Shown here in pieces: positions 4,732-25,475 of a stretch of DNA of 47,672 nucleotides. The stretch covers positions 1-47,672 of the IMG/VR virus record IMGVR_UViG_3300027573_000049. The stretch is one strand, 5' to 3'. A program made the translations under genes and the position numbers. Below the pieces are notes generated by a model. The model had not been told where the DNA came from. It did no database searches and saw only the letters and a list, made by a program, of their open reading frames with translations. The stretch comes from a virus. Within the stretch, counting starts at the first letter, position 1. Each line of letters opens with the position of its first letter.

Positions 4732-5523
4732 ATGGCTGACATCACTTCTATCTGCAATCAAGCACTCTCCGCGGTTGGGACGAGACAATCTATTGCTTCG
4801 ATCTCGGAGGCGAGCAATGAGGCTCGAGCCTGTTTGCTCCAGTATGAGCCAACGCGCAAGCATTTGCTGCGAGCGGCGCACTGGGGCTTTGCGAGAGCCT
4901 ACGCTAAGTTTCCGCTTCTCCGTGCCCGTTATGGAACGCCAGAGGCAACACACCCAGCGAGCCCAACTGGATGGAATGAGAGCTACGAGCCACCACCCCC
5001 TTGGCTTTACTCTTACGCGGTCCCAGCCGACTTACTCGCGATGCGCTATGTGTTGCCAATCACAGCCTCGACGCAGCCTGCTGTTCCATTCACTTCAGCT
5101 CCAATTGACCAGTACCCTGCAATGGGCTTCAGCCCAATGCCGAAGTATGAAATGGCGACCGGCTCAGCGGCTTTAAGCACAGTCCCGAAGAACGTCTTGC
5201 TCACCAATGTATCTCAAGCAATTATGTGCTACACGAAGGACATAACAGACCCGACGCTCTTTGACGAGTCTTTCTCGAGAGCGTTTGTTCAGGGTCTCGC
5301 AGCGAATCTGGCAACGACGTTGACTGGAGATTTGAAGCTTTTTGATGCGTTGCTTAAGACAACAAACTCGCTGATCCAAGATGCTCGAGTTAAGAGTGCG
5401 AACGAGGGCTTGAACGTGATAGATGTGGTGCCCGATTGGCTAAGGGTGAGAGGAGTTGGTCCGACGCTTGGAACTGGCCCTTGGGTGCCTGAGTATGGAC
5501 CGCTGTTTGGAGGCTCGTATTAA
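4732..5523 (+). CDS. Tail tubular protein A (gatekeeper-type)
   Basis: A 263-residue protein. The N-terminus (ADITSICNQALSAVGTR, then ISEASNEARACLLQYEPTRK) is characteristic of T7 gp11-like tail tubular A proteins, which form the dodecameric ring between the portal and the nozzle and carry the fibres. The segment LLRAAHWGFARAYAKF is the usual family continuation. Length fits other members without a fused domain. The last base of its stop overlaps the next ATG (TAATG), as in other tail operons of this type. Confidence 0.88.
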   Translation: MADITSICNQALSAVGTRQSIASISEASNEARACLLQYEPTRKHLLRAAHWGFARAYAKFPLLRARYGTPEATHPASPTGWNESYEPPPPWLYSYAVPADLLAMRYVLPITASTQPAVPFTSAPIDQYPAMGFSPMPKYEMATGSAALSTVPKNVLLTNVSQAIMCYTKDITDPTLFDESFSRAFVQGLAANLATTLTGDLKLFDALLKTTNSLIQDARVKSANEGLNVIDVVPDWLRVRGVGPTLGTGPWVPEYGPLFGGSY

Positions 5524-8372
5524 TGGCCGCTCCGATTATCCAATCCTCTTTCTCTGCGGGCGAGCTTTCGCCTCATCTCTTTGGGCGTGTCGATCTTGGT
5601 AAGTATAAGATCGGCGCAGCCAGGCTGTCAAACTTCTTGGTGGACTATCGTGGTGGGGCTGGAAAGAGGCCGGGAACTCGCTTCGTCGGCAAGACACCCT
5701 ATTCAGATCGAAACATTCTACTTATTCCTTTCAGCTTTAATGACGCGCAAACTTATATGATCGAGTTTGGAGATCGTTATATTCGCTTCATCACGCGAGG
5801 AGGCTATATAGTTAGTGGTGGAGTGCCGTATCAAGTTGCTTCGCCTTATAACCACGCAGACCTTCCCTTGCTCAAGTGGACGCAGAGCGGCGACATCTTA
5901 ACTCTTGTTCATCCAAAGTATTGGATCAATGAGCTTGTCCGCTTCAATCACACTGATTGGAGGCTTCGTGGCTTCACTATCGGCGCGACAGTAGCCCAGA
6001 TTGGCTCGGTGGGCTTGTCCGCGTATTCGTCAGGCTATGTTGATCCTGAAGCGGCCGTTTATGTTAACTATGGTTATGGGGTGACAGCTGTTGCTGAGGC
6101 CGAAGGGCCACTTAGCCCCATTGCTCGATTGAACAATGTCTTGGATATGTCCGCCCATCGAGTGAATATGGTTATCACTTGGGGACAGTGGGCCGAAGCT
6201 CAATACTACAATGTGTATAAGGCTACGAGTGGCGTTAATGCGATGATTCCCGCTGGATCACGGATGGGTTTTATCGGGAGTACGAGGGCGCTCAGCTTTA
6301 ATGATAGCAATATCTTGCCTAACTTCACGAAGGGTCCGCCAATTCATCTCAACCCCTTCGCTGCTGGTCAGATTGAGCGGGTGGTCATAACTAATGGCGG
6401 ATACAACTACACTTACGACGCAACAATCACTATCAGCGACCCTACTGGCTACGGAGCTGTTGTCTATCCGATCGTTGTCCACTCGACGATAACGAGCGCA
6501 CTTGTTGAGCGGGGTGGGCAAGGATATACTGCTCCACAAGTAGCCATCTCGCAGAGCACACCGACAGCAGTTGGCTCTGGAGCGGCCGCTGAAGCTGTTG
6601 TTGGGGCTGGAGGGCAGGTTGACTATATCTATATGGTCGCGTATGGAAGTGGATATACTTCTGGAGCAACAGTTAGAATAACTGATGCGGGCGGATCAGG
6701 CTATGATGCGACGGCTGTTCCAAACATCTCTGGAGGCCAAATCATAAGTATCGACATCACAAGTCCAGGTGCTGATTACGTCGCTCCTGTGGTTTCCATC
6801 GTCCCTCAAGTTGTAAGTTCAACGAACGCAGTAGGCTATGCCGTCGTTGGTCCGCAGTCTGGTACTTATCCAGGAGCGGTCGCGTACTTCCAGCAACGGC
6901 TTTTGTTTGCAGCATCAACCAATCGTCCGTCTACGATTTGGGGCTCGAAGCCGGGCGATTTCAACAACTTCGATACTTCCATACCTATCAACGACGGAGA
7001 CTCTTTTGAGTTCACGCTGGCGTCGCACCAGATCAACGCAATCAAGTATATGTTGCCAATGCCTGGTGGGCTTGTTGTTTTGACGGCTGGCGGAGCTTGG
7101 CAACTCAGTGGCACCCAACAGTTTGCTCCGGTGACGCCGACAGCTATAATGGCGACGCCGCAAGCGTTTGACGGCTGTGGTGATCTCGAGCCGATCAAGA
7201 TTGGGTATGAGATTCTCTTTGTTCAGGCAGCGGGCTCCGTCGTCCACAACCTGAGCTACAACTTCTTCGCGAACATTTATACTGGAGCTGATCTCACTGT
7301 CCTTTCAAATCACTTCTTTGCTAATCACAAGATTGTGAGCTGGTGTTTTGCGGAAGAGCCTGATAAAGTGATTTGGGCTGCACGAGACGACGGGATGCTG
7401 CTCTCGTTGACGTTCCTGAAAGAGCAGGAAGTTGCTGGATGGACACAGCATTCGACTGCGGGCGCTGTGAAGGCGCTTGGCTGTGTTCGTGAGGGCGCTC
7501 GTGATGTAGTGTATATGGCTGTTGAGAGGGTGGACGGAACGAACTCACACTACATTGCGATTGAGCAGCTTCAACAACGTTCGGCTCGCACGATCGAAGA
7601 GTCTTGGTTCTTGGATTGTGCTTTATCAACGGTTCCCTTCTTGGGGACTTCGACGATGTATAGCGGAATTTTGAATGATCCAACTGGGGTTGCTTTGTAT
7701 ATAACTGGTACGCCTTTGTTTGCCTCGAATTGGGTTGGAATTGAGCTTAGAGTTGCTGGCGGTCGATACAGGATTCATACGATCTACAGTGGAAATGTTG
7801 TTATTGCAGCGGAGATTGTTGCGGCAACGGACACTTATCTTGAGGAAGAGACTGGACATAAGCGGATTAGGCCGCAAGTGGCGGGGACGTGGAAGGCCGC
7901 TGAACGATTTATCTCAGTTGGCGGTTTGTCTCATCTCGAAGGGAAGAGAGTCTCCGTCATGGGCGATGGGAAGATGCAAACAGATAAAGTTGTTACGGGA
8001 GGCAAAATTACGCTTGACTCGCTCGCATCTCAGATAATTGTCGGCTTGGGCTACGACGCTGAGCTTCAGACACTTCGGCTTGAGTCTACTCCAACGATTC
8101 AGGCGCGAATGAAGAAAGTGCCTGAGCTTACGATAAGAGTAGCGGATACGAGGGGTTTGTGGGCTGGGATGACTTGGAAAACGCTGACGGAAGTTAAAGA
8201 GCTGTCACCGAATGTACTCTCGGGCGCTCCGACTCCTTTGTTCACAGGCGATTTGACGATAGTGATGGACCCGCTTTGGGCAGAGGAAGGCCAAGTTTGT
8301 ATCCGCTCGACGAATGGGCTCCCGGCGAATATAGTGGCGGTGATACCAGAGGCTGTGCTTGGTGATGACTGA
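5523..8372 (+). CDS. Tail tubular protein B (nozzle)
   Basis: A 949-residue protein whose N-terminus (QSSFSAGELSPHLFGRVDL, then RLSNFLVDYRGGAGKRPGTRFV) is the signature of T7 gp12-type nozzle proteins and their relatives in many podoviruses. It is longer than T7 gp12 (about 790 residues). Residues 285-440 hold tandem Gly/Tyr/Val-rich units (GGYNYTYDATITI, GGQGYTAPQVAI, YGSGYTSGATVRI, SPGADYVAPVVSI) that read as repeated small beta domains inserted in the propeller; such inserts may bind fibres or cell-surface carbohydrate. The segment AVAYFQQRLLFAASTNRPSTIWGSKPGDFNNF is conserved in the family. Confidence 0.88.
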   Translation: MAAPIIQSSFSAGELSPHLFGRVDLGKYKIGAARLSNFLVDYRGGAGKRPGTRFVGKTPYSDRNILLIPFSFNDAQTYMIEFGDRYIRFITRGGYIVSGGVPYQVASPYNHADLPLLKWTQSGDILTLVHPKYWINELVRFNHTDWRLRGFTIGATVAQIGSVGLSAYSSGYVDPEAAVYVNYGYGVTAVAEAEGPLSPIARLNNVLDMSAHRVNMVITWGQWAEAQYYNVYKATSGVNAMIPAGSRMGFIGSTRALSFNDSNILPNFTKGPPIHLNPFAAGQIERVVITNGGYNYTYDATITISDPTGYGAVVYPIVVHSTITSALVERGGQGYTAPQVAISQSTPTAVGSGAAAEAVVGAGGQVDYIYMVAYGSGYTSGATVRITDAGGSGYDATAVPNISGGQIISIDITSPGADYVAPVVSIVPQVVSSTNAVGYAVVGPQSGTYPGAVAYFQQRLLFAASTNRPSTIWGSKPGDFNNFDTSIPINDGDSFEFTLASHQINAIKYMLPMPGGLVVLTAGGAWQLSGTQQFAPVTPTAIMATPQAFDGCGDLEPIKIGYEILFVQAAGSVVHNLSYNFFANIYTGADLTVLSNHFFANHKIVSWCFAEEPDKVIWAARDDGMLLSLTFLKEQEVAGWTQHSTAGAVKALGCVREGARDVVYMAVERVDGTNSHYIAIEQLQQRSARTIEESWFLDCALSTVPFLGTSTMYSGILNDPTGVALYITGTPLFASNWVGIELRVAGGRYRIHTIYSGNVVIAAEIVAATDTYLEEETGHKRIRPQVAGTWKAAERFISVGGLSHLEGKRVSVMGDGKMQTDKVVTGGKITLDSLASQIIVGLGYDAELQTLRLESTPTIQARMKKVPELTIRVADTRGLWAGMTWKTLTEVKELSPNVLSGAPTPLFTGDLTIVMDPLWAEEGQVCIRSTNGLPANIVAVIPEAVLGDD

Positions 8373-18994: not shown

Positions 18995-19396
18995 ATGACC
19001 GTCTCGAACCAAAGTTCAGCTATCACCTATCTGGCGAACGGCTCCGTCAACCAGTGGGATTTTGGTTTTCCAATCTTGCATGAGAGCCATCTTCAATTCA
19101 AAGTCAAAGACCCGACCGGAGTGCTGAGCACGATCCCACCGAGTTCTTATTCGGTGGTGGGGATAGGCTCTCCGACTGGGGGCTACGTCGTCTATCCCCT
19201 TGCGGGCGATCCAGTTGCTCCCGGCTGGCGTGTTCGCATTCAGCGCGTGGTCCCCTTAACTCAAGACGTTGACATTGTGAATCAAGAGGCGTTCTATCCA
19301 GAGGTAATCGAGAGTGCGGCTGACTACGGCCGCTTCATCGACCAACAGCTTCAACAACGGCTGGCCGATCTTGAGTCGGGTGATAGCTGGGCTTAG
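18995..19396 (+). CDS. Short T7-type tail fibre anchor (N-terminal domain only)
   Basis: A 133-residue protein. Residues 3-110 (SNQSSAITYLANGSVNQWDF, then FPILHESHLQFKVKD, YSVVG, YPLAG, RVRIQRVVPLTQ) match the virion-binding N-terminal domain of T7 gp17-type fibres and spikes. A full fibre would continue for hundreds of residues; here the protein ends soon after, at a helical segment (IDQQLQQRLADLESGD). It is therefore probably an adaptor to which another fibre, perhaps one encoded at 43.4-46.2 kb, attaches. GAGAGAGGA precedes the ATG. Its stop overlaps the stop of the convergent gene. Confidence 0.82.
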   Translation: MTVSNQSSAITYLANGSVNQWDFGFPILHESHLQFKVKDPTGVLSTIPPSSYSVVGIGSPTGGYVVYPLAGDPVAPGWRVRIQRVVPLTQDVDIVNQEAFYPEVIESAADYGRFIDQQLQQRLADLESGDSWA

Positions 19397-20586
19397 GTGT
19401 AGCCAGGAGGCCGTGGCAAAGGCTTATATGCTCGGTGGCCGGAAGGAGTTATGAGATGCTCACAGTGTCCGGTTCGGACGAGAAGCTGGAGAAGCCGCTC
19501 GACGTTATGAGCGGGAACACGCTCAGCCAAGAACAACGTGGCGACACTCTCCATAACAGGCTGCCCAGTTTTACTGGACATCTTCCACATAAAGTGCCAA
19601 CAATCCTCGAGAGCTTGGCTGTCCCCGCCCTTGAGCATGGCTCTAAAGATGTCGGGCATCAAGGCCTCGGCCTCAAGAAGCCAGTCCAAGGCAACTTGAT
19701 AATGCTCGATTTCTATCGTCTGCGATGCACCCCAGGCTATGGCGCTTATAATACAAAGCTTAAGAAGATGGGCAGTTCGTCGGGGGAGATAGGAGGCGAG
19801 TCTGGGGTGGTCGGGAGCGGGGGGTCCGCCAGTCATGACCCAGTTTACCAAGGCGCGGGAAGCCTCTTCTGAGAACCGAAGCTCACCCTTCTTGTCACCG
19901 ATCAAGCGAAGGTCTTTGATAAGGCCAGTTAGGTCGATGGCTGAAGGCGACTCGAATGGATTGCGACGCTCGCTGATCCCGCAATAGACCATAATATTTC
20001 TGGAGATGAAGCCTTGATCCCAAGCGCCTTCCGGCATAAACTTGCCGAGGTAAGAGGGTGTGGTCCCACAGATGATATTGAAGAACGGCCGCTCAATAGT
20101 GATTGAGAGGTCTTTCGTTCGGCGCTTCTCACTGTAAGGTGTGCCGTCGTATATGTCAGTGAGGGTGGACATGAAGGCGTGCTCGTAAGCAGGGAGGAGA
20201 ACGCCCATCTCGCTGATGGCGGCAGTAAGCGCGTTGTAATCACTGTAAGGCATCCCAAAGAGTTGATGCCGCTTTGCGTCGTCGAGTTCGTCGATGAAGC
20301 TCGCCCTTGTCAAAGAGGACGAGCCCTTGTGGTGCTCTTGGAGAAAACCCCACAGTTGATTAACGCGGGCCAAGATAATTGACTTCCCAACTCCTGGCGG
20401 GCCAATCAGCATGACGTAAAGGTTTGGATAGAGGTTAGTGCCTCTTGAGACGATCCATATTTTCCTCTCTAATGCGCCTGCAACAGCCGAGATGCCCGCC
20501 CACTTTCTGAAGATGGGAGGCGAAGCTGTATCGGCAGTTTGCTCGACAAATGAGTCTATCCAAGATTTCCCCCTGCCGTTTTCCAC
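19393..20586 (-). CDS. DUF3987/YfjI-like ATPase, putative replication helicase
   Basis: A P-loop ATPase of 397 residues with this start. The Walker A motif GPPGVGKS follows a conserved N-terminal block (WIDSFVEQTADTASPPIF, then GISAVAGALERKIWI) like that of DUF3987/YfjI-type proteins, which often accompany phage replication genes; the helicase role is inferred. The only upstream alternative is TTG at 20628. I prefer GTG at 20586, which has AAGGA eight bases upstream and reduces the overlap with the polymerase gene to 31 bp. A downstream acidic block (STLTDIYDGTPYSEKRR) follows the usual family order. It is the last gene of the leftward arm. Confidence 0.75.
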   Translation of the reverse strand: MENGRGKSWIDSFVEQTADTASPPIFRKWAGISAVAGALERKIWIVSRGTNLYPNLYVMLIGPPGVGKSIILARVNQLWGFLQEHHKGSSSLTRASFIDELDDAKRHQLFGMPYSDYNALTAAISEMGVLLPAYEHAFMSTLTDIYDGTPYSEKRRTKDLSITIERPFFNIICGTTPSYLGKFMPEGAWDQGFISRNIMVYCGISERRNPFESPSAIDLTGLIKDLRLIGDKKGELRFSEEASRALVNWVMTGGPPAPDHPRLASYLPRRTAHLLKLCIISAIAWGASQTIEIEHYQVALDWLLEAEALMPDIFRAMLKGGDSQALEDCWHFMWKMSSKTGQPVMESVATLFLAERVPAHNVERLLQLLVRTGHCEHLITPSGHRAYKPLPRPPGYT

Positions 20587-22025
20587 TTGCTCAGTCCTTG
20601 CGGATTGTCTGTTGATTTCGGAGCCCAATTCCAGCCAACTTTAACTTCCGCGGGGATAATCAAAACTCGATCGCCCCGCAGCCGCACAGGATATTTGAAC
20701 AACTCCAAGACCTTGGGCAGGATTTCGGCCTCCTGCTCCTCAGGGTACTGAAATAAGATACTGTCGTGGACTTGCAAGAGGAGCTTCACGATGTTCGCTC
20801 GCCAAATGTTCAGCATAATTCGGTTGAGAATCTCGACCGAAACGCTTTGGGGCTCAAACGCCACCGCCTCTCGCAAAGTATCTTGATCGTTCCTCCTCCC
20901 GAAGAACCATCTCCGCATTCCAAGCATTGTCGTCAGACAGCCCTTCAACCGAAGCTCATCTTCGACCCACTGGTGCCACTTCTTAATCGCTTCAAACTTT
21001 GTGAAGTAGGCTGTTTGGAAGTCTTTGATGACTTGGACGGGCATTCTTGAGTGGAAAGCCATAGTGGCTGGCTGTCCCATGTAGTTAGAGCCGTGACCAA
21101 GGCGCTTCGCCATGTAGCGGAGGGAGTGTTGACGATAATGCGGCCGTTCCGCAAGATTCCGATTAGCAGAGGGATCGTTACTCCATCCGAGGTTCGGCAT
21201 GATCCCCTTAGAAACTTCCGTGTGTAGGTCTCCACTTTCACAGGCATCGAGATATGCTCCTTCGCCGAAGAGGTTCCAACAGATTGCACCGACGACCCGA
21301 GACTCGGCTTGTTCGAGGTCGATGTTACCAAGCTTCATTCCGGGATCAGCCACGAAAATTCGTCTCAGCCCTTCTTCGATGTTTTGGAGGTTTGTACCTG
21401 TCTCGAGATCAGCCATCGACGAAGAAAAACGTCCGGTTTCGGTTCCTGCAATGTTGAAGCTTGTTCGCATTCGGTTGTCAGCGTCAATTCGAGTTTTAAG
21501 GACACCAATCTTCTTTTGTATTTCACGGAGTGCGAGAATGTGGCTGATGATAGGCTGGGCAACGAAGTAGTTAGTGAGCTTCTCAAGTGCTCCACGATTG
21601 ACCGTCGGAACCATCTCACCATTGCTGTTTCTGCGGCGGACAGGCGGAATGCCAAGGACACCATAGAAAAGCTCCATCAGTTGTTTGGGACTTGACCATT
21701 TGACAGTTGTGCCGACGCCTTCTACGAGAATGCGATCAAGTTGACGAGAGAGTCGCCTTGTCCGAGCTTCATAATCCTTGAGAAGGCGTTCCCGTTCTTC
21801 AAGATTAATCTTGACCCCACGAAGGTTCATCTCCAGTACCGGCGCCTGAAGCGCCAAGCGCAAGGCGTAGGTCTCTCGCGTCACATCATCGAGCTGATCT
21901 CTGATGACGCCACATATCTCGTAAGTCAAGCAACAATCAAGGCCGTTATAGACCCACTGCTTTTCCATCTCTCCCATTCGAGATAAGACGGAAGGAGTTA
22001 ACTCGTGTGTCGCTATTATTCGCAT
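20556..22025 (-). CDS. Family A DNA polymerase, Exo III motif plus polymerase domain
   Basis: A 489-residue replicative polymerase subunit. The polymerase motifs are present: motif A (NIDLEQAESR, about residue 235), motif B (RYMAKRLGHGSNYMG, about 305) and motif C (QVHDSILF, about 416). The N-terminus holds only the last proofreading motif, Exo III (WVYNGLDCCLTYE, residues 24-36). Exo I and Exo II are encoded separately at 22563-23588, with two small genes between. The two products therefore probably assemble into one proofreading enzyme. The ATG has AAAGG ten bases upstream and overlaps the previous gene by 10 bp. Confidence 0.92.
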   Translation of the reverse strand: MRIIATHELTPSVLSRMGEMEKQWVYNGLDCCLTYEICGVIRDQLDDVTRETYALRLALQAPVLEMNLRGVKINLEERERLLKDYEARTRRLSRQLDRILVEGVGTTVKWSSPKQLMELFYGVLGIPPVRRRNSNGEMVPTVNRGALEKLTNYFVAQPIISHILALREIQKKIGVLKTRIDADNRMRTSFNIAGTETGRFSSSMADLETGTNLQNIEEGLRRIFVADPGMKLGNIDLEQAESRVVGAICWNLFGEGAYLDACESGDLHTEVSKGIMPNLGWSNDPSANRNLAERPHYRQHSLRYMAKRLGHGSNYMGQPATMAFHSRMPVQVIKDFQTAYFTKFEAIKKWHQWVEDELRLKGCLTTMLGMRRWFFGRRNDQDTLREAVAFEPQSVSVEILNRIMLNIWRANIVKLLLQVHDSILFQYPEEQEAEILPKVLELFKYPVRLRGDRVLIIPAEVKVGWNWAPKSTDNPQGLSKWKTAGGNLG

Positions 22026-22264
22026 GGCTCATAAAGCCTTTCAAACTCGTCAGCTGCTATACGGTAAGGGATGCCGTTATAGCCTCGAGCAATCCAGTCG
22101 CCCTCAAGCGCAAACTCGACCGTGTTGTAAGTGGTTCGAAGGACGGCTCCGCATGTGACGACTGTGGCCCAATCACAGTCGATGCACTTTAGAAACCACT
22201 CAGGTAGTGCATGGACTCCGAAGTGGAAGGCCTCGATCTCTGGATTTTTGATCTTGTATCTCAT
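22016..22264 (-). CDS. Small PGDYG-like protein inserted in the polymerase locus
   Basis: An 82-residue protein. The C-terminal part (EGDWIARGYNGIPYRIAADEF ending in YEP) follows the pattern of phage PGDYG-motif proteins, a widespread small family without known biochemical role. It lies between the exonuclease and polymerase parts of the split DNA polymerase and overlaps both neighbours by a few bases, so it is co-translated with them. It has two cysteine pairs (CIDC and T-C-G), but no clear metal site. Confidence 0.65.
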   Translation of the reverse strand: MRYKIKNPEIEAFHFGVHALPEWFLKCIDCDWATVVTCGAVLRTTYNTVEFALEGDWIARGYNGIPYRIAADEFERLYEPCE

Positions 22265-22566
22265 AGGCCAAGTTCCTCAAGATCAATCTTCGTTGGACGC
22301 TGGAAGCGCTGAGACTTTGGCTTCGGTCGCTCCTGTTTGAAGAAGTCGGGCCAATCGGCTGGAGCGTCAGGCAAAAAAAGAGAGCAGAGACTATCACAGG
22401 ACTTGATGAATAACTCATTGAGCGGCCATGTCCAATAGGGACGAACCCTCCAGCCGCCAGTTGTTGTGATCCACCAAGGCCCTGGGTCCGACGGAGTTCC
22501 ATCGAGTTTCTCGGCGATGGCGAACTCTGGCATCCCACGAACTACATGCGCGATCAAGTGGCTCAT
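22261..22566 (-). CDS. Hypothetical small protein with IDLEELGL tail
   Basis: A 101-residue protein, Trp/Pro-rich in the middle (DPGPWWITTTGGWRVRPYWTW) with a basic stretch (KPKSQRFQRPTK) leading to the C-terminal tail KIDLEELGL. The same tail type (NIDLNELGL) ends the small protein at 29329-29520. I do not recognise the fold. The shared tail suggests docking to a common partner in the replication complex. The ATG overlaps the stop of the UDG-exonuclease gene (ATGA). Confidence 0.6.
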   Translation of the reverse strand: MSHLIAHVVRGMPEFAIAEKLDGTPSDPGPWWITTTGGWRVRPYWTWPLNELFIKSCDSLCSLFLPDAPADWPDFFKQERPKPKSQRFQRPTKIDLEELGL

Positions 22567-23588
22567 TTATCTCTCCTTTCCTGTATCTTGTCTGTCTGTC
22601 GCATGATCTTCCACGAGGCTTCGTTGGTGTAAACACTTCCGAGGAAGCCGAGGCCCTTCTTTGACTCAGGCTGGAGGGCGTGGTGAAGCAACATCGTATC
22701 GTCTGTGGCGTTTGTAACTGTGATGCCCATCTTTCGCCAGAGAAAGCCTATGTCGTAGAGGCCGTTTTGCGCGGTCTTTCTTGCGGGGAGGTGAAGAATG
22801 TGCTTGACGAGCTTCCATGCGTTTACCTCGGACTCCGGTGTCCAGTAAGACCAACCATCTTTTCTGTAATCGACGAAGGGGACGACGAGGGCGAGGCGCT
22901 CATTGGGAGCGAAGCCGATGCAAGTGATCTCGCCCCAAGCCGTCTCAATATCGAACGCTATTTCTTCGGCTCGTTCAAGGTAAGTTCTGGTGAATAGTTC
23001 GATGTCGTTGATGCTTTCAGCGATCCAGATTTCTCTCTTAGGTCGTCTAACTTCTGGGAAACTTGACTCTCGCTTGGCTTTGATGAAGTCTGCGACGACG
23101 GTTGGTCGGAGTTCCCACTGCCGGAGGACGGCAGCCGGGTGAAAGGTGGCAAGGTACTTTTGGGGATTTCCGTCTCGTCGTTTGAGAAGGGATGCCTCCT
23201 GAGTAGCTCCTCTGATTTTTGTGATGCCGGTGGCACCTGATAAGAACCACGAGGCAGTGTTTCCGAGGGCCAAAACGAGATTTGGTTGCACGCTCCGCAG
23301 TTCGGACATGAGACGATCAAGCTCAGAGCCATACTGGGCTTTGACGCACTTCCCTTTGGAGATTGGCCCACGGTCTGGGATGCTAGGACTCCCGCATAGT
23401 GCTTCGACATTGTTGTTCTCCGGTCTAAGGTTAAAGACGTTCGAGAGGTAACAGTCGCGTCGGCGGATACCAGCTTCGTCGAGCATTCGAGTCAGCTCAT
23501 AACCGCTCGGCCCGACGAAAGGTGCACGTTGGCGCTCTTCGTGCTCGCCCCAGGCTTCGCCGAGGATAAAGATTTCCCCAAATCTCAT
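22563..23588 (-). CDS. UDG-like domain fused to 3'-5' exonuclease (Exo I and II) of DNA polymerase
   Basis: A 341-residue fusion. Residues 1-170 match uracil-DNA glycosylase family 4/5 architecture: motif A ILGEAWGEHEE with FVGPSGYELTRML, and motif B TFHPAAVLR. Residues 185-335 are the first two-thirds of a DnaQ-like proofreading domain: Exo I FDIET (about residue 211) and Exo II NGLYDIGFL (about 274), then DDTMLLHHAL. The chain stops before Exo III, which begins the polymerase gene 540 bp downstream. UDG-like N-termini on family A polymerases are known, for example in phage SPO1. Motif A has W where glycosylases usually have P, so activity is uncertain. Confidence 0.85.
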   Translation of the reverse strand: MRFGEIFILGEAWGEHEERQRAPFVGPSGYELTRMLDEAGIRRRDCYLSNVFNLRPENNNVEALCGSPSIPDRGPISKGKCVKAQYGSELDRLMSELRSVQPNLVLALGNTASWFLSGATGITKIRGATQEASLLKRRDGNPQKYLATFHPAAVLRQWELRPTVVADFIKAKRESSFPEVRRPKREIWIAESINDIELFTRTYLERAEEIAFDIETAWGEITCIGFAPNERLALVVPFVDYRKDGWSYWTPESEVNAWKLVKHILHLPARKTAQNGLYDIGFLWRKMGITVTNATDDTMLLHHALQPESKKGLGFLGSVYTNEASWKIMRQTDKIQERRDK

Positions 23589-23806: not shown

Positions 23807-24228
23807 CAGTTCACCGTCCTGGACCCTCTCGCGTTAATCAAGTTCTGTACATCCTGCTCGTTCGCAAGCGTTGCGAGACATTCCTCAAGCGTTGGAAAGT
23901 GCTCGAAACAGCAGGCCATCGTTCCGAGTGGATGCTTGTTCCCAGCGTGGAGAACTGGCTTGCCCATAGCATAGGCGATACCAGCCTCGAACGCAGCTCC
24001 CCTCGGCGTTTCGTTCTCCTCTGTATAGAGGATCAGCATGTTGCAGATGATGATGTCCTTGACATTGTTCTCCCAAGACTCGTTGATGACCGCTTGAGAG
24101 CAGTTTGGCTCTCCATCCTTCATAAAGTCGATCCACGAGCTGACGATGATGAGCTTCGGATAAAGTTTTTGCCGAAGCTTGATCCAGCGTCGAGCGTGGC
24201 GTATGTGAGAGGCGATGTAGAGTTTCAT
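23806..24228 (-). CDS. Nucleoside 2-deoxyribosyltransferase-like protein
   Basis: A 140-residue protein with the fold pattern of nucleoside 2-deoxyribosyltransferases and related base-handling enzymes: N-terminal MKLYIASHIRHARRW, the buried IIICNMLILYTEE strand, and the signature ETPRGAAFEAGIAYAMGKPV, whose Glu in AFEAG corresponds to the catalytic position of the family. Members exchange or hydrolyse bases of (deoxy)nucleosides. In this phage it lies between the methyltransferase fusion and the UDG-polymerase genes, so a role in nucleotide supply or DNA base modification is possible. Substrate cannot be predicted. Confidence 0.75.
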   Translation of the reverse strand: MKLYIASHIRHARRWIKLRQKLYPKLIIVSSWIDFMKDGEPNCSQAVINESWENNVKDIIICNMLILYTEENETPRGAAFEAGIAYAMGKPVLHAGNKHPLGTMACCFEHFPTLEECLATLANEQDVQNLINARGSRTVN

Positions 24229-25475
24229 TCGGCTGTGTCCTCTAAAAGAGCTTGATTTGCATCACGCGCGAACGCTTCGTTAATCTCCAGTCCAAGAATG
24301 CGGCTTGCCCCGAGGCGCTTTGCTGCTCTCAGAGCCGAGCCACTTCCCGCCGTTGGATCGAGGATCGAGGTGTGACCATCGACGAGCATCCTGAAGAAGT
24401 ACGTCAGCATGGTCACTGGCTTTTCGCTCATATGGCGGTCGGTGACTGTACTCGCGGCGAAGAGGTTCGAGACGATCTTGACTATTGGATGGTCGCCTCG
24501 AGAGCAGAAGAAGGCAGTCTCGTAAACTCGACGAGCCATGTGCTGTGGTCGAGGGGCGTTACCAGCGTTGTCCGACTTGTGCCAGACGAGCGGATATGGG
24601 TCAACGAAAAACTCAGATGAGAGTAAGTCGAATGTCTCAGCGTAGTGAGTCATCGAGAACCAAAACATTAAGTGGCCTTGATCGCTCATTATCTTGTCGA
24701 TGTTTGAGAGGAGGCACTTGATAAGCTCGAGATAGTTCTCTTTGGTGTCTTTGTACTCGCCGTGGACGCTTTTCGAGGCGAATGCAGAGCCAAACTTGTG
24801 GGCGTCGATGCCGTAAGGAAAGTCACAGTGAATGAAGTTGAATAGAGGGCCTTGGTACGCTGGAGCCCAGTTTAGAAAGCTGGTGTTTAAGATGGTGTCT
24901 TTCGGACGCTCGGGCTCGACCCGATCGAGCACTCGATCAAGTTCAGCTGCCGCTTTCCGCTCGGCCACTCGCCGAGTCATGTTAACTGCTGTAGTGTAGC
25001 GGGGTGCTGCGTGAACCATCGACTTCGGATCAGCCAACTCTTTCGCAACGATGAGTCTTGCCGAGGCCTCCGGCTGTGTCAGTCCAAGCGCCTCCGCTGT
25101 GTTCTCGATCGTCCACTTCATCTCTTGTGCTGCACGAAGTTGATGATACTCTTGAACGGCCTTGCACTCGTCTTGCCAAGGCAATTCCTTCCGCTTCACG
25201 TTTTCTTCAAGTTCGATCGCGTGAAGCAACGCCTCGTCACACTCGTCTTGAAACTGGATTGTGACATGGCTCCAGCCAAGGGCCTTAACCGCGGTGAGCC
25301 GCCGCTCTCCAGAGACAAGAACAAGCTCTCGCGTGACGACGAGAGGATGGATTAGACCGAGACGGCGAATCGAATCTGCGAGAACGTCGATGTCGGTCAG
25401 CTCTTGGCGTTGGCGCTCGTCTCGGTTCGAGATGATTGCGGCGACAGAAACACTTTGGAATTGAGAGGAGGTCAT
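24225..25475 (-). CDS. ParB-like domain fused to DNA methyltransferase
   Basis: A 416-residue fusion. Residues 8-75 are a ParB N-terminal-like domain (HPLVVTRELVLVSGERRLTA contains the GERR box). Residues 85-160 look like a helix-turn-helix linker (NTAEALGLTQPEASARLIVA). Residues 205-410 are a DNA methyltransferase with HCDFPYG in the catalytic DPPY position and DPTAGSGSALRAA as the SAM-binding motif; the order (catalytic, then SAM-binding) is the beta class. Such fusions occur in phages and mobile elements as orphan, often N6-adenine, methylases that protect against restriction. The Phe in DFPY is a noted variation. AAGGGA precedes the ATG. Confidence 0.88.
   Translation of the reverse strand: MTSSQFQSVSVAAIISNRDERQRQELTDIDVLADSIRRLGLIHPLVVTRELVLVSGERRLTAVKALGWSHVTIQFQDECDEALLHAIELEENVKRKELPWQDECKAVQEYHQLRAAQEMKWTIENTAEALGLTQPEASARLIVAKELADPKSMVHAAPRYTTAVNMTRRVAERKAAAELDRVLDRVEPERPKDTILNTSFLNWAPAYQGPLFNFIHCDFPYGIDAHKFGSAFASKSVHGEYKDTKENYLELIKCLLSNIDKIMSDQGHLMFWFSMTHYAETFDLLSSEFFVDPYPLVWHKSDNAGNAPRPQHMARRVYETAFFCSRGDHPIVKIVSNLFAASTVTDRHMSEKPVTMLTYFFRMLVDGHTSILDPTAGSGSALRAAKRLGASRILGLEINEAFARDANQALLEDTAE

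Follow-up and report, generated by a model that had tools for sequence, protein, structure and literature searches.

Recurrent division of a phage family-A DNA polymerase within its proofreading domain, a probable legacy of HNH homing endonucleases

Proofreading is normally built into one polypeptide. The locus described here raises the question of how a phage came to encode a proofreading DNA polymerase in two pieces, and of what becomes of the exonuclease when the residues of its active site lie on different proteins. On the minus strand of the window, which is the whole 47,672-base virus record IMGVR_UViG_3300027573_000049, four successive overlapping genes encode the two parts of a family-A polymerase, chain 1 and chain 2, and two small cargo genes that occupy the break between them. 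The favoured reading, to which a probability of about 0.72 is assigned, is that an HNH homing endonuclease fissioned the polymerase, that proofreading was kept as a two-chain activity and that the break was turned into a cargo slot. The features concerned are the following.

22563-23588, minus strand: chain 1, 341 amino acids, with a UDG-like domain (about residues 1-180), Exo I (D213, E215) and Exo II (D279)
22563-22589, minus strand: last codons of chain 1, with the Shine-Dalgarno-like stretch ggaaaggagagataaaTGA, which precedes the next start (ATGA) and runs into it
22261-22566, minus strand: ORF101 (open reading frame 101), cargo gene without a family match
22016-22264, minus strand: ORF82, cargo gene with a weak match to phrog_419 and phrog_4502 (small phage proteins, function unknown)
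20556-22025, minus strand: chain 2, the polymerase chain, 489 amino acids, with a leader, the Exo III motif and the family-A polymerase domain
21930-21956, minus strand: Exo III motif WVYNGLDCC, chain 2 residues 24-32 (coordinates counted from the translation)

The DnaQ-like 3'-5' exonuclease motif set of PolA is complete at this locus, with D-x-E and the second D on chain 1 and Y-x3-D on chain 2; the labels Exo I, Exo II and Exo III follow the preliminary description of this DNA. That description had reported four intact, overlapping genes with a two-gene insert at 22016-22566 coupled by the overlaps, and this is what the locus contains, the successive overlaps being 4, 4 and 10 bp. It had also placed Exo III near the start of the polymerase protein, which is correct, and Exo I and Exo II at the end of chain 1. 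Both of the latter are on chain 1, but Exo II is not terminal, as D279 is followed by about 60 more residues that include a conserved DTMLLHH...WK block, and chain 1 ends after the conserved 'WK'. Because intact, overlapping genes are split between Exo II and Exo III, the catalytic site would be drawn from two chains, and the division of the motifs supports the earlier proposal to that effect.

The residues in question are strictly conserved. All 30 chain-1 rows share D213, E215 and D279, all 26 chain-2 rows share Y26, N27 and D30, and all 38 rows of fused proteins share the equivalents; these residues appear to match Klenow exonuclease residues treated in PMC9629493. The leader of chain 2 is short and conserved (T6 is invariant, and Exo III reads Y26-N-G-L-D30), and the assignment to family A is supported by D236, H420 and D421 of chain 2, invariant in 26 rows. 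Pfam matches UDG in chain 1 (2.8e-20) and DNA_pol_A in chain 2 (3.6e-35), together with a weak, below-cut-off match of chain 1 to DNA_pol_A_exo1 (0.0013). On the phrog_17 profile chain 1 covers positions 553-798 and chain 2 covers 807-1236; therefore the break removes almost nothing. The N-terminal fold of chain 1, putatively of the family-4/UdgX type, resembles 4zbx (Z 19.9 over 155 residues, root-mean-square deviation 2.2), and its UDG-like domain scores 84.5 bits against NCBIfam UDG_fam4, below the cut-off of 125.3. Ratios of nonsynonymous to synonymous substitution (dN/dS), read with dS near saturation, are about 0.13 for chain 1 and 0.06-0.07 for chain 2, against 0.23 for ORF101 and 0.39-0.44 for ORF82. 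Both chains are under purifying selection, and it is stronger than that acting on the two small genes.

The break lies in a loop after 'WK', about 24 residues ahead of the Exo III motif YNGLD, and it is widespread. An IMG/VR scan with chain 1 found 65 relatives, and all 63 that carry both pieces are split here. In a set of 188 deduplicated loci (174 after containment deduplication plus 14 new; individual loci are given L numbers below), 79 are split at the loop, 65 of them in the window's clade and 14 in a sister clade, and 96 are uninterrupted at the loop, some of these being broken elsewhere. The intact fused polymerase that the proposed check called for in related phages is thus found. The remaining 13 loci consist of 2 split at the UDG/exonuclease border, 3 whose frame breaks immediately downstream of Exo III, 7 without the polymerase part and 1 without the UDG part. 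Within the window clade every scorable deduplicated locus is split at the loop (65 of 65) and none is intact; these loci come from the window, Caulobacter phage Kuura, IMG/VR contigs and contigs of metagenome-assembled genomes. Kuura (OQ067476), a cultured phage, has the UDG-exonuclease gene, two small genes and the polymerase gene in the same order. The split is old in this clade, and on the strength of the sequences a large environmental phage family appears to build the proofreading domain of its DNA polymerase from two proteins that would assemble and act in trans.

Predicted structures place the break at a weak surface loop. The model of the fused relative L145 (mean confidence, pLDDT, 90) matches PolA structures (Z 33.2 with 6vdd), and after its UDG part comes a fold like that of the Klenow fragment (1kfd, Z 30.2); within the exonuclease domain, confidence is weakest in the loop between helices 324-331 and 351-378 (block mean 61), and the split point falls there. 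When chain 1 of the window is folded by itself, the prediction is confident up to about residue 298, and pLDDT stays under 50 for almost all of residues 299-341, the region that in the intact model forms the helices ahead of the loop. This is suggestive of a chain 1 that may need chain 2 to complete its folding.

The sister clade, in which the polymerase is mostly fused, is revealing of how such breaks arise. Of its 14 splits, three contain an HNH gene and one an HNH scar; in nine there is no inserted gene, and the remaining locus, L214, has two ORFs that do not look like HNH genes. In L070 and L143 the gene lies exactly in the break and matches phrog_3377 (4e-38 and 9e-28, respectively); in L230 a 140-amino-acid HNH gene resembling that of L143 overlaps both neighbours. 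The locus L179, nearest relative of L230 in the tree, carries a deletion scar of the L230-type gene, keeping its first 19 codons and its last stretch and having lost about 330 bp, and the polymerase is fused in the close kin L195, L231 and L206. Trees were built from 111, 100 and 31 rows after near-copies and short rows had been dropped. The IQ-TREE analysis of 100 sequences, which omitted 5 long branches and some window-clade rows, requires 10 changes between the fused and split states, of which at least 9 are forced by well-supported branches. In the 31-row tree, which holds 11 of the 14 sister-clade splits (all but L142, L213 and L225), a one-clade origin of the 11 splits outside the window clade is rejected by the approximately unbiased test (p-AU 5.9e-10), as is a single clade of all 13 splits (3e-124). 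A junction could also have travelled between loci by homing or recombination, so the ten changes do not amount to ten proven independent fissions. A comparison of near and far segments for co-conversion around the shared 'WK...GG' junction in 42 loci gave a result too mixed to support it, with 4 of 10 focus loci dropped for lack of the motif or of length. In addition, L251 carries an intein inside the Exo III motif (YN^CED; polymerase ORF at about 5050-5900; Pfam Intein_splicing 3e-9, LAGLIDADG_3), so that, with the HNH genes at the loop, two kinds of homing element strike this spot. An HNH origin of splits is thus supported directly in these relatives, which show that selfish endonuclease genes can make such splits. 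Homologues of the L143 and L070 endonucleases also lie directly after the polymerase gene in L175 (7475), L186 (7367) and L213 (7447).

Other explanations of the locus have been considered. An assembly or frameshift artefact has a probability close to nil: although the window is a metagenomic contig, and the breaks of L213 and L068 could be errors, the same split occurs in the cultured phage Kuura, and dozens of contigs from different samples agree. The split is real and conserved and is not an assembly error, and the preliminary description was right to regard its position between Exo II and Exo III as non-random, the same break recurring in 65 window-clade loci. A self-splicing intron or intein in the insert, from which a full-length polymerase would be made after all, has precedents, in that phage PolA introns are known and for the split PolA of OM43 phages one has been proposed (PMC10580990), and an intein does sit at the Exo III motif of L251. 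It is nonetheless very improbable. Insert lengths lie between -4 and 2083 bp and the contents are unrelated, the stop and start codons remain in loci with no insert (L016, L018, L026, L027 and L218), the chain ends are conserved and the genes overlap, and the ORFs of the window match no Pfam intein family. More specifically, a group I or group II intron in the insert is rejected by the finding of 0 Rfam matches in the window and 12 insert-bearing relatives. It is also rather unlikely that the exonuclease has fallen into disuse, chain 2 serving as an exonuclease-free polymerase and chain 1 being kept for its UDG-like domain. The chains are only presumed to associate, and in the comparison of the window with L006 conservation is lower for the exonuclease part of chain 1 than for the whole chain (77% versus 85%); yet the catalytic carboxylates are invariant in every row of both chains, and the chain-1 ends listed retain the conserved block as far as 'WK'.

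The rival that carries the most weight concerns the origin of the split in the window's own clade, which may have been a simple indel or recombination at the loop, with HNH genes as later visitors. An inserted gene is absent from nine of the 14 splits in the sister clade, only 4 of 60 deduplicated window-clade loci (L033, L044, L054 and L057) have HNH_3-type genes in the break, and the T4 review voices the same doubt for gp43 of phage 25 (PMC2988022). Against this stand the sister-clade series of fused, HNH-bearing and scarred genes at the same loop, and the two kinds of homing element that have struck the loop and Exo III. An endonuclease-free origin is accordingly a real possibility but the less probable one, and for the split in the window's clade an HNH origin is itself proposed by analogy with its relatives. 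Several observations weigh against the reading favoured here. Family and profile matching of ORF101 and ORF82 recognised no HNH gene or remnant in the window's break; besides the small number of HNH-bearing loci just given, HNH_3 is matched by only 3 of the 46 cargo ORFs taken as representatives, and the window-clade HNH genes could be late invaders of an already split gene. The trees are unrooted, so that a few re-fusions are possible among the fused/split changes, the chain 1 fold is a single-chain prediction without a truncated fused-protein control, and the excess of Shine-Dalgarno-like sequence described below is partly coding bias, as 44% of 324 fused-loop windows carry such a sequence.

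The earlier suspicion that the two small genes themselves made the split is not supported, as the same break is found without any insert or with dozens of unrelated inserts. In 64 window-clade loci, or 60 without the 4 contained duplicates, the gap has 37 different lengths; in 4 of the 60 (L016, L018, L026 and L027) the stop and start simply overlap, and L218 is a fifth such case. The gaps hold 110 ORFs in 45 blastp clusters (both counts include sister-clade L070), picked mechanically and probably including spurious ones such as those of L030, and their content includes HNH_3 endonucleases, an FkbM-type methyltransferase, DUF7768, DUF1937, DUF3102 and a KTSC-domain protein. Homologues of ORF101 and ORF82 occupy the same position in 7 close relatives, with ORF101 identities of 62% in L006 and about 47% in L007-L010. 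The inserted genes are thus interchangeable cargo and not the cause of the split, ORF101 and ORF82 being only the current cargo. Of the 60 loci with a last cargo ORF, 56 have it overlapping the start of the polymerase gene, and a Shine-Dalgarno-like sequence is present at the end of chain 1 in 39 of 42 distinct cases, compared with 21% of random windows. The conserved tail TIK[KR][ED][DE], which had been a candidate docking peptide, is largely explained by this gene-end sequence and is weakened as such. A single cargo ORF of exactly 82 codons (L007 7023-7268), gained or lost, distinguishes L007 from L010. It lies between GAGAAATGA repeats, which comprise a Shine-Dalgarno-like sequence together with the ATGA overlap, an arrangement suggestive of a simple cassette mechanism that works through this junction. 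One cargo ORF, at L058 4043-4264, has a weak hairpin match to Acb2/Tad1 (E 1e-4, under the Pfam cut-off) and is possibly anti-defence.

The sequence of events proposed under an HNH origin would be as follows. The ancestor would have been a single protein with a UDG-like domain, a 3'-5' exonuclease and a polymerase, into which a free-standing HNH homing endonuclease gene inserted at the surface loop that separates Exo II from Exo III, cutting the polymerase. The endonuclease would later have been lost while the split stayed, with the two chains produced separately by coupled translation of overlapping genes. The chains most likely assemble non-covalently, the Exo III helix of chain 2 completing the active site of chain 1, and proofreading would have been retained in trans. 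In the window's clade the break would now be a slot for transient small accessory genes such as ORF101 and ORF82. A more elaborate proposal, which is doubtful, is that fission by a homing endonuclease has become a stable and useful architecture, that the break serves as a translationally coupled slot dedicated to cargo, with whole genes swapped through Shine-Dalgarno/ATGA repeats, and that the ratio of the two separately translated chains tunes proofreading and mutation rate, since Exo III is on the polymerase chain and Exo I and Exo II are on the UDG chain.

The same gene row of the window contains two further genes, one on either side of the polymerase genes.

19393-20628, minus strand: DUF3987 primase/helicase-like protein, the next downstream gene
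24225-25475, minus strand: upstream gene, a ParB-like N-terminal domain fused to an N6/N4 DNA methyltransferase

Polymerase genes of the locus set are also interrupted elsewhere. A second recurrent break, just after the NLQN(I/L)P motif of the polymerase domain, occurs in L002 (Vibrio phage ABTNL-3, 5612-6166), L091 (6686-6958), L096 (6715-7573), L147 and L058, and its gap holds small ORFs (one in L096 is methyltransferase-like by eye) or nothing. A common frame break just after Exo III, in CTTGGTGTCCGTCCTTAGCTC, is found in L215 near 5143, L249 near 5131 and L251 near 5962, and could represent a +1 programmed frameshift (CCT TAG C) or shared decay. In-frame insertions of 0.85-1 kb in the polymerase domain of L154 (about 6974-7821) and L166 (about 6833-7836) leave the frame open and have no Pfam intein match. 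Finally, L088 (1413-2055) and L094 are split at the UDG/exonuclease border, with a broken HNH fragment in the gap (phrog_1872, 5e-11).

A phage clade that appears to keep an exonuclease active site divided over two proteins is of general interest. As its relatives hold the steps of intact gene, endonuclease in the break, endonuclease scar, empty break and cargo, the fate of fissions made by selfish elements becomes testable. It may be asked whether two-chain proofreading works, whether the mutation rate changes and why one loop is struck repeatedly; this loop is also a natural place at which to divide family-A polymerases.

Homing endonucleases are already known to have split essential phage genes whose function was retained. 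The T4 review (PMC2988022) describes as 'genes-in-pieces' the PolB of T4-related phages divided into gp43A and gp43B and the nrdA of Aeh1 split by mobE, and states that the split proteins co-purify or stay active. These cases resemble the present one in that an essential replication gene lies in two coding regions linked to a homing endonuclease. By the same comparison, a contiguous homologue exists in relatives of the window and an endonuclease gene lies in the break of relatives, but not in that of the window. The polymerase of the window differs from gp43 as described there in belonging to family A and not family B, in being cut within the proofreading domain, in the recurrence of the cut at one loop and in the clade-wide replacement of the endonuclease by diverse cargo. 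The OM43 phages MEP401 and MEP402 (PMC10580990) and Vibrio phage vB_VspS_VS-ABTNL-3 likewise have a family-A polymerase in two ORFs with a small unknown gene between, but in these phages it is the polymerase domain that is interrupted, and the exonuclease is encoded complete in the first ORF; for OM43 an intron was suggested by the authors. A virus metagenome yielded ExnV1 (PMC9629493), a stand-alone 3'-5' exonuclease that represents this part of a phage PolA without the polymerase and is probably truncated according to its authors. In a literature search limited to open-licence PMC full texts, no account came up of a PolA that is divided between Exo II and Exo III. Also among the closest known systems is the cultured relative Kuura, which has the same split with two small genes between; its two cargo genes fall in blastp clusters apart from those of the window, its chain 1 is annotated as hypothetical, and the passages found in its paper (PMC9959647) make no mention of the split. 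New in the present locus and its relatives are thus the different polymerase family, the cut through the proofreading active site, the recurrence at one loop and the use of the break as a cargo slot.

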